Origin: Chloroflexota bacterium
GTDB taxonomy: Bacteria; Chloroflexota; Anaerolineae; B4-G1; DUEL01
Length of the DNA: 64,000 nucleotides
Assembly: GCA_014874475.1 (NCBI GenBank)
Contig: JADBJJ010000027.1
Coordinates: forward strand, 1 to 64,000
Reading direction: 5' to 3'
The notes below the pieces were generated by a model. It saw only the letters and a program-made list of their open reading frames with translations, made no database searches and was not told the DNA's origin. Positions 17,904-25,739 of the stretch are shown here, in pieces (position 1 is the first letter of the stretch; each line of letters begins with the position of its first letter). A program made the translations under genes and the position numbers.

Positions 17904-20900
17904 ATGCAATGCCTGCGGTGTGGTCGGGATGGCTGGACGCCTTCGGCACCCTGCCCCGATTGCGGGTTCTCCGGGCTGTCTGAGGCGACGGAGGAACTAA
18001 CCCACATCCGCTATCTGCTGGCGGAACTGGAGAAGTGGGAATGGTCAGATGTGCCCCGGATGGTGCGGGAGCGGTTGCGGGCCCGCTACGTTCGCCGCGC
18101 CCGGGAACTGGAGGTCGCCCTGGGCCTGCGCTCACCCCCGCCGACCCCCGAAGAGGCCCGGGAGATTTTCCAGGAACTGGCCCACCTGGAGGAACTCCGC
18201 CGCTCCCTGCGCCGGTGGGAGGGACGCGGCTGGATAAGGCCCGAGGCGGCCCTGGAGCGCTTCCGGCAACTGGAAGAGGCCATCGCCGCTCGACGCGCCC
18301 GCCTGAACGAGGCGATGGAAAGCGGCGTTGCGTTACCATCAGCAACCCCTCTCCAGGGATCGGCATACCTGGCCTTCCTGCGGGATGCACGGCAAGAGGC
18401 GGACCGGCTCAATGACGCGGGCGCCTGGACCGACGAGAAGGGTTTTCAGAGCGCGGTGGCCGAACTGGAGCGGGCCATCGCCGGTGTGGAAGCCCGGCTG
18501 GGCCTGCGCCCACCCCCCGCGCGCCCCCGTTCGGTTCCAGCCCCGAAAGCGCCCCCTGCCGCCGCACCTCCTGCCCGTCCGCCCAGGGAGCCGCTCACCT
18601 GGGACCTGGTCTGGCGCACTCTCCTCTCCGAACGCACCCTCCGCACCCTCCTCTTCATCGGCGCCTTTCTGATTTTTGCCTCGGCGGTCACCCTGGTCAT
18701 CTACAATTGGGAGCGCTTCTCCCCCTGGGGCCAGGTGGCCATCCTCTCTGCCTTCACCTTCTTCTTCTACGGCCTGGGCTGGTACGTCCGGGGGCCGATG
18801 AGGCTGCGCAACTCGGGAATCGCCCTCACTGCCTCCGCCTCCCTCCTGGTCCCAGTGGATTTCTACGCTATCTACCTCTCCGGCGGTATTTTCCCCAGGG
18901 AGGCCTGGGCCGAGGTCTGGTGGCTGACCTCTGCCATCTGTCTGGTGGCCTATAGCATCACTGCCTGGCGGGTGCGGGCGGAGTTCTTCGGGTATCTCTT
19001 GGGGACGGCGTTGGGGAGTCTGCTCTGCGCGTCCCTCCAACTGGTGGGAGTCTCTTCTGACGTCTGGTCGCCATACCTGGGCGGGCTGGCGCTGGCCCTG
19101 CTGGTGCTGGAGGCCCGCTGGCCGACTATCCTGCGGCGCCCGTTCCGCCACCTGGCGCTGCTGACTTCGCTGGCGGCCGCTCTGCTGATGTTGGGCTTCT
19201 GGCTGGCCGGTCAGGGCGACCGGTTCCCGTTCCGGGTGGCGCTGGCTCTGGACTGGTGGCTGGCGGCGGCGGCCTACGGGCTGGCAACGGCGCGCTCCCT
19301 CCAGCCGATTTTCCTCTCCGTCACCTGCGCGGCGCTGCCGCTGGCCTCCTTTACCACACTGACGCTGGTTCTGGAGCCAATGGGGGCGCCGGCGGCTTGG
19401 CACGCGCCCGCGCTGGCCTTCTGGACTCTGGTTTATGAGACGGTGGGGTTCCGTCTGGCGCGCGCGGACGGGAACGCGCGGGCTTCTCTGGCGCGCGTCC
19501 TCCTGGGCTGGGCGGTGGGGCTGGGCGTGCTGGCGGCCGGGTGGGGGCTGACGGATATGGCCGCCGCCTCGGCGACCCACGCCGTCCTGGCCGTCGCGGC
19601 CGCGCTGGCGGCCGCCCTCTGGGAGCAGCCCCGCCTCCTTCCCCTGGCCAGCGCGCTCTCCCTCTCCGCACTGGCCACCGGTGCCTCCACTCTGGGGCTG
19701 GAACTGGCCGAGTACGGCCTCCCCCCTGCCTCCCTGGCCCTACTCCACCTGGAATTGGCCCTTCTCCTGCGGCGGGCAGAGCGATACACTTCGTACCTCT
19801 ACGGCAGCACGTTGGCCCTGAGCGGGCTGGCGTTGCTCCCGCCGCTTTTTGTGGAAGACCGCCGCTGGCTCCTCTACACCCTGGGGAATACCATCGCCCT
19901 CTCCGGCTGGATGGCAGCGCTGGCCCACAGCGGCCAGCACCCCGGCCTGAACCGCCTCTTCCCCCGCCGGAGTGTCCTCCACTGGATCACGGCTCTCCCC
20001 CTGCCTCTCTGGTTCGGCCTCTTCTGGCACGAAGTCATCCGCCCGGTGGACGCCTGGCAGGGACTGGCGATGACCGGCTTGGCGGCATTCCTCCTTTGGC
20101 TATGTCTCTGGCTGGCCCGCCGCGACCCGGCCTACCGCCTCCCCTGGCATATTTCCAGTATCCTGGCCGGAGTGAGCGGCGTCGTCCTTTCCCTTTATCA
20201 CTACGACCGGTTGCCGGTGGCTCTCAATCTGCTGGCAGTCTCTGCCCTGGCCTTCGCCTACGCCGTATCTCTGCGCCAGCCGGGGTGGCTGGCAGTGGGC
20301 GGGCTGGTCCTCCCCTTCGGGTACGGCCTGTTCCTGGACCATCTGGGATTTCCCACCGACCCGCTCGCAGTGGCGCTGACCGTCCCTCCGGCCCTCTACC
20401 TGCTGATCGGAGCGTACCTGGAGGTCCGGCGGGGAGTGGAGCGGTCCTTCCTGATGCCCTTCTACGGCGCGGCCCAGGTGGTGGCCTTTGTCGCTTTTGT
20501 GGGACTTTGGGTGCGGGTCTCCGAGGCTCCCGAAAGCGACCCCACGCTCCTCTGGGCCGCCGGGGGGCATCTGATTCTGATGCTGGCCTACGGGACATCG
20601 GCCTGGTACCGGGGGGCCCGGGAGTCAGCGGCCGTCCGTATCGTGGGGGAGACGGTGGCCTCATCGGCGGTGGCGGCTTTCTATGCCCACATCGCGGCCT
20701 GGCTGGGGGTCGGGGCCGGGGGATTGCTGGCCGCTGCCTACAGCCAGGGACGGGGCTCCTCGGCGGTCAAAGCCGCTCTGCTGGCCGTGGCCTACGTCCT
20801 GATGGAACGGGCGCTCTTCGCCCTGCGCGACCGTCAGCCCCTGGCCGGGCGAGCCTGGCCGATTTACCGCCGTCCCTTGCTGATCGCCGGTTGGGCCGTC

Positions 20901-21152
20901 TCTGGTGGGGCCGTCTTCCTGGCCCTGGTGCGCAACCTGCTCATTCTGGGCGGCGGGCCGGTTCGGGAGAACTGGTCCATCGTGGCGTTACTGATGATAG
21001 TTGCCCTGTACGCGGCGTCGGCCCGAATGTTTCGCCGTCCGGTTTTCCTCTGGATCGCTTCCCCGCTTCTTATTGCTCCCTGGACGCTGCTCACCCATCA
21101 GGGCTGGTACATCTGGGAGCCGCCTCCGGCACCCCGCTACGCGCTGGCATAG
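17904..21152 (+). CDS. Giant polytopic membrane protein, first part (ends at in-frame amber)
   Basis: A 1082-residue frame. A zinc ribbon (C3xxC6, C17xxC20) opens the protein, followed by a soluble, partly coiled-coil region with two related EhLGLRxPPxxP repeats (about 70 and 195) and a Pro/Ala linker. From about residue 240 there are roughly two dozen hydrophobic helices. The block around LLFIGAFLIFASAVTLVIYNW resembles DUF2157/SCO7613-type membrane proteins; its function is unknown. The frame ends at TAG (21150-21152) in the middle of a hydrophobic helix. The same frame continues without a gap into the next entry, so this is probably one protein of about 1914 residues interrupted by a TGG-to-TAG change. 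Confidence 0.75.
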   Translation: MQCLRCGRDGWTPSAPCPDCGFSGLSEATEELTHIRYLLAELEKWEWSDVPRMVRERLRARYVRRARELEVALGLRSPPPTPEEAREIFQELAHLEELRRSLRRWEGRGWIRPEAALERFRQLEEAIAARRARLNEAMESGVALPSATPLQGSAYLAFLRDARQEADRLNDAGAWTDEKGFQSAVAELERAIAGVEARLGLRPPPARPRSVPAPKAPPAAAPPARPPREPLTWDLVWRTLLSERTLRTLLFIGAFLIFASAVTLVIYNWERFSPWGQVAILSAFTFFFYGLGWYVRGPMRLRNSGIALTASASLLVPVDFYAIYLSGGIFPREAWAEVWWLTSAICLVAYSITAWRVRAEFFGYLLGTALGSLLCASLQLVGVSSDVWSPYLGGLALALLVLEARWPTILRRPFRHLALLTSLAAALLMLGFWLAGQGDRFPFRVALALDWWLAAAAYGLATARSLQPIFLSVTCAALPLASFTTLTLVLEPMGAPAAWHAPALAFWTLVYETVGFRLARADGNARASLARVLLGWAVGLGVLAAGWGLTDMAAASATHAVLAVAAALAAALWEQPRLLPLASALSLSALATGASTLGLELAEYGLPPASLALLHLELALLLRRAERYTSYLYGSTLALSGLALLPPLFVEDRRWLLYTLGNTIALSGWMAALAHSGQHPGLNRLFPRRSVLHWITALPLPLWFGLFWHEVIRPVDAWQGLAMTGLAAFLLWLCLWLARRDPAYRLPWHISSILAGVSGVVLSLYHYDRLPVALNLLAVSALAFAYAVSLRQPGWLAVGGLVLPFGYGLFLDHLGFPTDPLAVALTVPPALYLLIGAYLEVRRGVERSFLMPFYGAAQVVAFVAFVGLWVRVSEAPESDPTLLWAAGGHLILMLAYGTSAWYRGARESAAVRIVGETVASSAVAAFYAHIAAWLGVGAGGLLAAAYSQGRGSSAVKAALLAVAYVLMERALFALRDRQPLAGRAWPIYRRPLLIAGWAVSGGAVFLALVRNLLILGGGPVRENWSIVALLMIVALYAASARMFRRPVFLWIASPLLIAPWTLLTHQGWYIWEPPPAPRYALA

Positions 21153-21170
21153 GTTGTATTAGCGGGGCTG

Positions 21171-23651
21171 TTGTGGCTGGCGAGTCTGGCCCTCCGGCGC
21201 CCCTACCGAACCCCGCCGGAGGTGACGGCCCATCTGCTGCTCCCCCTCGCGCTCCTCTGGGGGGCCGGAGACCCGAAGACCTCCAGCGGTACCTTCGGCC
21301 TGGGGGTGGCGTTCTACGCCGCTGCTGCCTTCGCCGACCATCGGCGGGGGCGGACGGGTGGGGCGGCGGCCCGTTTCCTGTACCCTGCCGCTTTCCTGTT
21401 TCCCGTCTGGGGGCTCTACCTGCTGGCCCGTTTCTACCCCCACCTCCCGCAGACTCACTTCGGCGTCCTGCTTCTGCTTCTCTCGCCGGTCCTCTTCATC
21501 CTGGCGCGCCTGTTGCGCCGCGTTCAGCCCGCCGACGCGTTTCCCGCCTACCTGGCCGCATACGCCTGTGCGATTGCCGGCACTGCGGTGGTCAGCGCCG
21601 ACCGTCCGCTGCTGGCGCTGGCGTTGCTCTGGGATATGGGGCTGGCGCTGGTTTCGGCCTGGGTCCTGAAGGGGCCGGCCTGGGGGTATCCGGCGGCGGC
21701 TTGCCCGGCTGGGGCGCTCCTCCTGGCGCTGGCCGAGCGGAAGTTCCCGCCCGACTGGCGCGGCCTGTGGCTGGTGGGACTGGCGGCTGCCTATCTGCTC
21801 ATTGCCTGGGCGCTCCGCCGTCTCCCCATCCGCCGGTACGCTCCCCCGTGGATGATCGTCGCCTACACCGTTCTGGCGCTGGGGCTGCCGGTGGCCGGGT
21901 ACGAGCCGCTGGCGGCGGCGTGGACGTTCGGGGCGGCGGCGGTCCTCTACGGCCTCTCCGCCTTCTGGCTACGGGAGCCGCTCCTCCTGATGCCGGCCAT
22001 GGGGCTAGCGCCGGTTCCCTACATCGTCGCCCTGGACCGGACCGGTTGGATTCCTTGGGCCGACTGGGGGCTGGCGCTGTGGCCGGGCATTCTGGCGGCG
22101 GGCGGGCTGGGGTGGGTTCTGGAGCGGTATCTGGGGGACAGGGCACCTTTCCCGTGGGAGTCGCCGGGCCGATGGCTGCCCGAGGCGGCTCGGCGACTGG
22201 TGGGCTGGTGGCCCCTGGCGCCGTATCTGGTGGCCGCGCTGGGTGTCGTAACGGCCATTGCCTGGTCGTGGGATTTTCCCCTCCGGCGGATGCTGGCCTT
22301 TCTGCTGGCCGCCCTTGCTTGCGGCTGGGCCCTGGCCCACTTCCGGCGGCGGGGCTGGCTGGTGGCGCTCCTGGCGGCAGTCCACGGCGCCTGGTGGAGT
22401 GCGGTGGCGGGGGCGGCGCTGGGGCTGATCCCTCTGCCCTCCCCCTGGCCGGCCCGCCTGGGCGACCCGGCCTGGCGGGCGTTTGCCTTTCTCCCAGTCA
22501 CCCTGCTGATGGCACTGGGAGGGTTGGCCGTCCAGCGCCGGTGGGGAGAAGCCCCGCCCTTCGGTGAGCGCCGGATGGCCTGGCCCGGCTGGTCGCGCCC
22601 CTTCTTCTGGTTTCTGCTCTGGGACGTGGCCGCCGTCCAGATGGTTGGCGTCCGCAACGCCCATCCGGGGACGCTCATCAGTCTGGCTCACGCCGTTCTG
22701 CTGGCGGCTCTGGCGATGGTGTGGGGGCGGAAATCCCTGGCCTGGGGCGCGGCCGCGCTGGGGTTCGTTGCGCTGGTGGAGCGGCTCTTCTGGGTTGCTG
22801 CCCCAGAGACGGATGTTCCGGTGGCCCTGGCGCTGCTGGCCCTGGCCTACGGCACGGTCGGGTACTGGATGGAGTACTTACGGCGGGGGCGAAAAGGGAC
22901 GCGCTTCTGGGACGTGCTGGAGGAGCCGCTGGAGGTCGGCGGTCAGATTCTGGCCGCTACGGCCATCGCTTGGGCGCTGGCCGCCGGGCTGGAGGTCTGG
23001 CGGTGGCTGGTGCGCGCGCTCCTGGGCTACCCTTTCCCCACCGGCGAGGATATCCTTCTGGTGCAGATGGTGGTGCTGGTGCTGGCGCTCACCGGCCTGA
23101 TGTACCTGGCCGCGTCGCTGGTTCGCCGCTGGTACTGGCGGGGATACGGGGCGGTGGCGATGCTCCTGATCGCCTGGAGCCTGGAGTGGTTCCTGGTCTG
23201 GGGACGGCGGGAGGTGCAGTGGTACGCCGTCCCTGCCGGACTGTACCTCTTGGGGGTCGGATGGCTGGAGTGGCGGCAGGGGCGCCGGACCCTGGGGCGC
23301 TGGATTGACCGACTGGCCGTCCTTCTGCTCCTGGGCACTTCCTTCTACCAGTCACTGGCGGAGGCCAACGGCTGGCCCTACGGGCTGCTGATGGGCGCGG
23401 AGGGGCTGTTGCTGGTCTGGTGGGGGAGTGCCCGACGGCAGCGGCAGTTCCTTTACATTGGGACGATGGGGGTGGTCCTGGCCGTGACCGGCCAGTTATT
23501 GCGGCAACTTTTTACGGTGACCAACGCCTGGATCGCGTTCGGCGTGCCCGGTTTGGTGATTCTGGCGGTAGTCATCTGGATTGAGCGGCGGCTGGAGTAC
23601 CTGCGCGCGGTCTCGGAGGAGTGGAAGGCGCGGCTGGAGAAGTGGGAGTAA
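21171..23651 (+). CDS. Giant polytopic membrane protein, second part (after in-frame amber)
   Basis: This 826-residue frame is in the same phase as the preceding one and begins 18 bases after its TAG. The nearest start is a TTG (21171) with no good ribosome-binding site, so independent translation is doubtful. The protein is nearly all hydrophobic helices (about 20) with short basic loops and ends with a cytoplasmic coiled segment (ERRLEYLRAVSEEWKARLEKWE). Composition and codon usage match the upstream part. If the TAG were TGG, residues on both sides would form one continuous helix (ALA-W-VVLAGLLWLASLAL). Confidence 0.7.
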   Translation: MWLASLALRRPYRTPPEVTAHLLLPLALLWGAGDPKTSSGTFGLGVAFYAAAAFADHRRGRTGGAAARFLYPAAFLFPVWGLYLLARFYPHLPQTHFGVLLLLLSPVLFILARLLRRVQPADAFPAYLAAYACAIAGTAVVSADRPLLALALLWDMGLALVSAWVLKGPAWGYPAAACPAGALLLALAERKFPPDWRGLWLVGLAAAYLLIAWALRRLPIRRYAPPWMIVAYTVLALGLPVAGYEPLAAAWTFGAAAVLYGLSAFWLREPLLLMPAMGLAPVPYIVALDRTGWIPWADWGLALWPGILAAGGLGWVLERYLGDRAPFPWESPGRWLPEAARRLVGWWPLAPYLVAALGVVTAIAWSWDFPLRRMLAFLLAALACGWALAHFRRRGWLVALLAAVHGAWWSAVAGAALGLIPLPSPWPARLGDPAWRAFAFLPVTLLMALGGLAVQRRWGEAPPFGERRMAWPGWSRPFFWFLLWDVAAVQMVGVRNAHPGTLISLAHAVLLAALAMVWGRKSLAWGAAALGFVALVERLFWVAAPETDVPVALALLALAYGTVGYWMEYLRRGRKGTRFWDVLEEPLEVGGQILAATAIAWALAAGLEVWRWLVRALLGYPFPTGEDILLVQMVVLVLALTGLMYLAASLVRRWYWRGYGAVAMLLIAWSLEWFLVWGRREVQWYAVPAGLYLLGVGWLEWRQGRRTLGRWIDRLAVLLLLGTSFYQSLAEANGWPYGLLMGAEGLLLVWWGSARRQRQFLYIGTMGVVLAVTGQLLRQLFTVTNAWIAFGVPGLVILAVVIWIERRLEYLRAVSEEWKARLEKWE

Positions 23652-23698: not shown

Positions 23699-23740
23699 CG
23701 CAGGCCGCCAGGCCTGTTGATGGGCAGGCTAACAGCCTGC
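23699..23740. repeat. Two REP-like inverted repeats
   Basis: CAGGC(23701-23705)...GCCTG(23712-23716) and a perfect GCAGGCT-AAC-AGCCTGC (23724-23740) form two adjacent hairpins of related sequence. They look like a paired palindromic repeat rather than a terminator, as no T-run follows. Confidence 0.6.
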
Positions 23741-23791
23741 GCCACGTCTATCCGATTTCATCGGCGTCCTATCCGCAGAGAGGAAGGTCGG

Positions 23792-25180
23792 ATGAGAGAG
23801 TCACTGGATGACCGATTCCAACCGGAAGGGGTTGAAAGGGAGGGGGAAACGACCACCGAACCGGAGGTATCTTCATCCCCTCTTCAGGCTGGTGTCCCCC
23901 GCTGGGCGAAGACGCTGGTGCTGTTGTGGGGGCTCCTGTTGGCGTCTCCCACGCTGCTTATGGGGGTGGCGCTTTGCTGTGTGGTGATCAGCATCCTGTC
24001 CTCCGCCCGTTCCACGGTGGAGGATACTCTCTTTGTGCTCATCCCCTTTAGCGTGGGGGCAGTCTGCGGCGGGGGGATGTTCTGGCACGGGATACAGGCG
24101 CTGCAGGGGAAGCCTTCTCGTCCCCTCCGTCTCCCCCCGGTCTGGGCGCTGGTCGGCGGCTTTGTGGTGGCGATGGCGACCGGGCTGGGGTTGGCGCAAA
24201 TCCGGGTGGCGGGTGTGTTGCTGGCGCCCCTATTCATCCTGGTGGCGGCGGCGCTGGCCCCTATTGCCGCCGTTGCCTGGGCGGTGGACGCCCGCCCCGG
24301 AGGGCTTACATGGCGACGGGCGATGGTCGCCTTCGGCGCTGGAGCCACGGTCTCCGTTCTGCTGGCGCTGATGCTGGAATGGCTGTTCCCCTACGCGGTC
24401 CTGTGGGGGGTTCTGGACCTGGGTGAACCGATCCGCCGGGCGGTGGAGGAAGTCGTCCGGTTGCTGGCAGGGCAGAAGGTGGCCCGGGCGCTGACCCGTC
24501 CGATCTTCCTGCTTGCGCTTCTGAACTACGCGGTCTGGGTCCCGCTGGTGGAGGAGACGGTCAAATCGGTCGTGCTCCTGCCCCTGCTCTGGGGGCGGAG
24601 GGATGGCCAGCCTCTGCTCTCCTGGCGGGAAGCATTTCTTCTGGGGACGGCGGCGGGCGCAGGGTTCGCCGTCCTGGAAAACCTGGTGTACGTGCAGATG
24701 GCGGGGGATGAGTGGGGAGGTGTACTGGCTGTCCGGGCTTTGGGGAGTGCTGTCCATCCCCTGGGCACCGGTCTGACGGCCCTGACCTGGTACGCGCTGG
24801 CTCCGGGCCGGAGGGAGGAGCGTCCCCCGCGCTGGGCGGCTGGATTCGGGCTGGCCCTGGTCCAACACGGGATATGGAACGGTGGGATTCTTCTCTGGTC
24901 GGCGCTCTCGGGGACCCCGTTCTTCGGGATTGTGCAGGAGACGCGGGTGGTGGGGACGGGGATTGCGGTGGGCCTCCTGGCGCTGCTGATGGTGTGGGGC
25001 GCGGCGGCGGCCTGGGGCCTGCGCATCATTTCCCGACGGCTGGCGGGGGAAGAGGCCTATCTGTATCCGGCGCTGCCGGAGGTGCCGGTGGAGCGGGCGG
25101 TCGCGCTGTGGGCGGTGGTCTGTCTCGTGGTCCTGCTCCCGCTGGGGTTGGCTCTGCTGCGGGAATGGTGGGGGAAGTGA
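23792..25180 (+). CDS. PrsW-family intramembrane metalloprotease
   Basis: A 462-residue membrane protein with an acidic, low-complexity cytoplasmic N-terminus and about nine hydrophobic segments. The PrsW/CPBP-like active-site motifs are present: VEETVK near residue 255, AVLENLVY near 295 and SAVHPLGTG near 320, the Glu and His residues being candidate zinc ligands. PrsW proteins cut membrane-bound targets such as anti-sigma factors. No anti-sigma gene is adjacent, so the target is unknown. ATG 23792 follows GAGAGGAAGG; the frame extends upstream to 23717 through repeat sequence. Confidence 0.82.
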   Translation: MRESLDDRFQPEGVEREGETTTEPEVSSSPLQAGVPRWAKTLVLLWGLLLASPTLLMGVALCCVVISILSSARSTVEDTLFVLIPFSVGAVCGGGMFWHGIQALQGKPSRPLRLPPVWALVGGFVVAMATGLGLAQIRVAGVLLAPLFILVAAALAPIAAVAWAVDARPGGLTWRRAMVAFGAGATVSVLLALMLEWLFPYAVLWGVLDLGEPIRRAVEEVVRLLAGQKVARALTRPIFLLALLNYAVWVPLVEETVKSVVLLPLLWGRRDGQPLLSWREAFLLGTAAGAGFAVLENLVYVQMAGDEWGGVLAVRALGSAVHPLGTGLTALTWYALAPGRREERPPRWAAGFGLALVQHGIWNGGILLWSALSGTPFFGIVQETRVVGTGIAVGLLALLMVWGAAAAWGLRIISRRLAGEEAYLYPALPEVPVERAVALWAVVCLVVLLPLGLALLREWWGK

Positions 25181-25181
25181 T

Positions 25182-25739
25182 ATGCGTGGCGTGTTCCGTT
25201 CCCCTCACTTCTACGTTGCTCTGGCCCTGACCGTCGCCGCCGTCCTGGCCTGGGCGTCGGCCCTCCGCCCGACGGGCCCCCTCTATCAGGCGCAGCCCAT
25301 TCTGGAATCCGATCTGGCCGACCTGCGGAACCGTCTGATAGAAGGTGGGCACAGCGGCGAGACGTTTGAACTGCATATCACCGACCAGGAGGCGGCCGAG
25401 ACCATCGCCTGGTTTCTGGACCGTCGCCCCGAGGTTCCCTTCCGGTATCCGCGCATTGCGTTTCACCCCGGCGAGATAGAGGCGTGGGGAGTTGCGATAG
25501 TGCTGGGGCTGGAACTTTCCATCCACGGCCGGGCGACCATGCACCTGGAGAACGGGATTCCCATTGTTCGGCTGACGGAACTGGGAGTAGCGGGCGCGCC
25601 GGTGCCGGGATTTGTCCTTCAGGCCATCCAAGATGCAGTCTACCAGCAGGTGGACCTCTCCAACCGGCCGTTGCCCGTCGTCTTCACTGCGCTGGAGATT
25701 CGGGAGGGAGAGATGTGGGCAGAGGGGGTGATCCGGTAG
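25182..25739 (+). CDS. Small membrane-anchored protein of unknown function
   Basis: A 185-residue protein with one N-terminal hydrophobic anchor (about 10-27) and an extracytoplasmic alternating strand/helix domain, LELSIHGRATMHLENGIPIVRL being clearly beta-like. The general layout (anchor, then a curved beta sheet) is reminiscent of YpmS/DUF2140 or DUF2993 lipid-binding proteins, but I cannot confirm either family. It starts 1 base after the PrsW-like protease stop, so it is co-translated and could be a partner or substrate. Confidence 0.7.
   Translation: MRGVFRSPHFYVALALTVAAVLAWASALRPTGPLYQAQPILESDLADLRNRLIEGGHSGETFELHITDQEAAETIAWFLDRRPEVPFRYPRIAFHPGEIEAWGVAIVLGLELSIHGRATMHLENGIPIVRLTELGVAGAPVPGFVLQAIQDAVYQQVDLSNRPLPVVFTALEIREGEMWAEGVIR

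Follow-up and report, generated by a model that had tools for sequence, protein, structure and literature searches.

Among described systems, SCO7613 of Streptomyces and the NCBIfam family NF047321 (SCO7613 C-terminal domain-containing membrane protein) provide the comparison for the gene considered here. In PMC8313934, deletion of SCO7613 is linked to PHA accumulation, and glycerol transport by this protein appears there as speculation only. As regards the decoding of stop codons, PMC13092985 describes anticodon stems of four pairs, mainly in connection with UGA; the tRNA-Trp of the genome studied here is unlike these, having five pairs.

The window analysed here is a stretch of 64,000 nucleotides, the first of a contig of 398,297 bases, in a genome of 3.0 Mb and 32 contigs. 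The downstream half of a giant gene in this window scored 55.4 bits against NF047321 and thus passed the curated cut-off of 45; of the 14 sequences in alignment A1, 8 matched the same family at E<=0.001. The family model spans the last ~180 residues only, and the window gene is interrupted; the full-length read-through window protein gave no match to NF047321 at E<=0.001, the C-terminal half alone being matched.

The interrupted gene and its neighbourhood

The reading frame runs on the + strand from the ATG at 17904 to a stop codon whose last base is 23651 and comprises 1915 codons with a single internal TAG at 21150-21152, which occupies the position of residue 1083. The preliminary description of this DNA had claimed an in-frame amber splitting a protein of about 1914 residues, an unchanged phase over the TAG and a poor independent start of the second half. 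All three were borne out: there are 1914 sense codons besides the TAG, the frame is the same on both sides, and the first candidate start after the stop is a TTG at 21171 (the seventh codon), followed by the first ATG only 161 codons on. The features of the locus are as follows.

17904..21152, + strand: giant membrane-protein gene, upstream part (1082 codons plus TAG), recognised from homologues
21150..21152, + strand: in-frame TAG, residue 1083, at a Trp column in all covering homologues
21153..23651, + strand: downstream part with the C-terminal SCO7613_CTERM domain, 832 codons plus stop (55.4 bits, cut-off 45)
23717..25180, + strand: PrsW-family intramembrane protease-like gene (PF13367, 68.6 bits, cut-off 23.5)
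25182..25739, + strand: gene of a 185-aa protein, conserved neighbour, no family match

At its N-terminus the upstream part carries a CxxC...CxxC arrangement, which we take to be zinc-ribbon-like, and the upstream half matched its own genome at one place, namely itself. Because homologues align continuously over the TAG point, the frame is, as judged from the alignments, more than two ORFs adjoining by chance. Between 17904 and 25739 the giant gene heads a trio, being followed by the genes for the PrsW-like protease and the 185-aa protein, both intact. Of 22 loci, 19 have a relative of the PrsW-like gene nearby and 21 a relative of the 185-aa gene, some loci without a neighbour being short contigs. 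No known family was found for the 185-aa protein in the family searches.

The preliminary description had also claimed that the residues around the TAG would complete a membrane helix if the codon were TGG (Trp), and a helix at this site is supported by prediction with modest confidence. An AlphaFold2 model of residues 850-1915, built with 12 sequences (mean pLDDT 66.1), positions residue 1083 as the eighth residue of a predicted helix at 1076-1096 with a local pLDDT of about 70, and the hydropathy scan peaks at 1079-1097. Searching the PDB by sequence gave no match to the giant membrane protein, and a Foldseek search against the PDB, with a query model of mean pLDDT 66, returned nothing at E<=0.001.

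As for its distribution, the giant gene had no match in the other 12 genomes searched (six of the same genus and six of the same family). Counting the own genome, matches were present in 5 of 48 genomes of the order, 3 of 100 sampled from the class and 14 of 201 sampled from the phylum; the family of genome G085 contributed 5 of 14, and that of genome G109 1 of 10. A profile search of genome contigs, based on the alignment, retrieved 22 loci, every one with a title naming Chloroflexi or a Chloroflexi-type group and almost all of them from MAGs, while a contig search with the upstream half alone as query found no relative. The gene seems to be frequently gained or lost, since it was found in none of the other 12 genomes searched in this family but is present in more distant ones.

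The tryptophan column and other broken copies

At the column of the TAG, Trp is present in all 23 covering homologous loci, which include three distant ones (G238, G278 and L153), and all are open there, with no stop or frame break; locus L154, which covers the last 121 residues only, was omitted from this large alignment. A first, smaller alignment had given Trp in 10 of 10 covering sequences. Full-length homologues with Trp at this position, to which the preliminary description had pointed as a check, are therefore at hand, and homologues consistently made of two genes, which it had named as the contrary case, were not encountered, none of the 23 covering loci being split here. A naturally split gene was ruled out on the same count. 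The two annotated proteins should best be treated as halves of one.

Two of the 22 loci of the profile search are broken, at different places. In the homologue of HGW-Chloroflexi-1 (PHCA01000030.1, genome G109, locus L143, also L025) an in-frame TAG is located at L143 5228-5230 (L025:1809-1811), in the column of window residue 339, which holds Trp in the 20 other covering sequences and in the window. This homologue shares with the window gene the presence of just one amber, in frame and at an invariant Trp column; the two differ in that its amber lies elsewhere and Trp is retained at the column of the window's TAG. The homologue of Chloroflexi bacterium CFX6 (L148) has a frameshift near residue 770, at about 6671-7040 of L148. 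Such differing break sites would be expected of mutations or errors that arose independently.

Among the Trp/TAG columns of the window protein 9 are invariant when all rows are counted, and both ambers are situated on these; when the three distant rows are left out, 24 of 102 are invariant. That both ambers fall on invariant Trp columns is a curious coincidence, noticed post hoc; by our own very rough arithmetic, random hits on Trp codons would do so with a probability between 1 in 100 and 1 in 20. In G109 no CUA tRNA was seen among 44 ARAGORN calls out of 46 Rfam matches, and a literature search on HGW-Chloroflexi-1 found no paper.

Meaning of UAG in this genome

TAG terminates 75 of the 292 predicted genes on the 398-kb contig. 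The contig was scanned for split genes by codon usage rather than homology, with the resulting table read by eye, and among its 35 same-frame consecutive gene pairs the pair at 21150 alone has coding-like codon usage after the stop and no near start; the remaining pairs have a start nearby or a weak coding score beyond the stop. The suppressor tRNA reading UAG, suggested as a check in the preliminary description, was not detected: the anticodon CUA occurs in 0 of 44 tRNA genes, which were found with Rfam in the own genome and all read by ARAGORN, in an assembly of 97.7% completeness where a tRNA gene may have been missed. The tRNA-Trp has the anticodon CCA, and its anticodon stem is complete with 5 bp.

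RNA folding downstream of the TAG was no better than that of shuffles (z = +1.24), 181 of the 200 shuffled sequences folding at least as well, and an RNA readthrough signal 3' of the TAG was dropped from consideration. A stop conserved at the TAG column, as programmed readthrough would need, was seen in none of 23 homologues. A change of the genetic code was rejected, given that no CUA tRNA is among the 44 found, that TAG serves as an ordinary stop and that the scan of the 398-kb contig showed no second in-frame split gene. Thus neither reassignment nor suppression of UAG is supported, nor is a structured signal for readthrough. With regard to the preliminary description, its derivation of the TAG from a Trp codon agrees with Trp in 23 of 23 loci, and its proposal of readthrough was not upheld.

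Two side observations concern tRNA genes. ARAGORN called a tRNA-Ser (gct) at window 22769-22836, within the giant-gene reading frame; it is likely false, given this position and its absence from the Rfam list of the genome. Furthermore, tRNA-Ile (GAT) and tRNA-Ala (TGC) were not found among the 44 tRNA genes of the own genome (G000). As these two are often sited within rRNA operons, the assembly may lack such an operon.

Age and cause of the stop, and comparison with relatives

Columns invariant in close relatives, counted with the three distant loci omitted, are retained by the window protein at 77 of 81 positions before the TAG and at 68 of 73 after it, so that no decay of the downstream half is seen beyond the TAG and any loss would be recent, retention being equal on both sides. 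In this frame TGG codons make up 208 of the 249 single-transition nonsense targets, and a Trp codon is therefore the expected target. Taken together, a recent real nonsense mutation or strain variant at the invariant Trp codon is the reading that we consider probable and favour over a consensus error. In its favour are also the patchy occurrence of the gene, as would suit a dispensable one, the breaks of other copies at other places and the lack of any sign of UAG reassignment. A single-base change would recently have interrupted one long gene of a giant multi-pass membrane protein; UAG would end translation after residue 1082, just inside the predicted membrane helix, and the cell would be left with at best a truncated and probably non-functional protein. 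The downstream half would not yet have had the time to decay.

An error of the consensus or the assembly, or the inclusion of a minority strain variant, with the living gene having Trp and making the full-length protein, is possible but less probable in our estimation. It would give the same picture, since there is no other decay: the rest of the gene and the two conserved downstream neighbours are intact. In addition, most relatives carrying the gene are MAG records, and the two other broken copies also come from draft assemblies. It has to be set against this that among the 292 predicted genes of the 398,297-base contig the codon-usage scan made no other in-frame split evident, and nonsense errors, the kind that the scan covers, are therefore not common there. 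The division of probability between a real change and an error is a matter of judgement.

The remaining readings are all improbable. Separate synthesis of the halves, restarting at TTG 21171 or later, and their joining in the membrane would agree with the TTG seven codons past the stop and with a break near the start of the predicted helix, but a restart at this TTG drops the first part of the very helix that holds the site, the first ATG is distant, and no covering homologue is split. Still less probable is readthrough of UAG by a suppressor or near-cognate tRNA yielding some full-length protein. Conserved residues are lost no more often in the downstream half, and a second family member has an amber at a different invariant Trp, as such readthrough would allow; against it are the sense Trp in 23 of 23 homologues, the 44 tRNA genes with no CUA and with a CCA-bearing tRNA-Trp of normal stem, the 75 genes ended by TAG and the unremarkable downstream fold. 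Slightest of all is the chance that some Chloroflexota tolerate UAG as a Trp codon in this gene family through low-level readthrough that inserts Trp, an idea that arises because two members from different families, the window gene and L143, are otherwise intact in frame and have one TAG each, at columns where every other covering homologue has Trp.

Homologues can tell a mid-gene stop that is a lesion from one that belongs to the biology of the gene, and here the invariant Trp marks an isolated nonsense codon, for which an ordinary lesion or an error would, on the sequence evidence, be the best reading. The nearest homologue, the full-length protein of L133 (JAOAAG010000121.1, also L003), is about 55-56% identical to the window protein over 1346 shared columns. 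Around the site its sequence is PRYALA-W-MVLAW, against PRYALA-TAG-VVLAG in the window, with Trp instead of the stop and an unbroken frame at that point. In this Chloroflexota MAG, as in the window, the gene is accompanied by the PrsW-like and 185-aa neighbours, and the more lasting point is that this trio, which joins a many-helix giant membrane protein to the PrsW-like protease and the 185-aa protein, is conserved across Chloroflexota.
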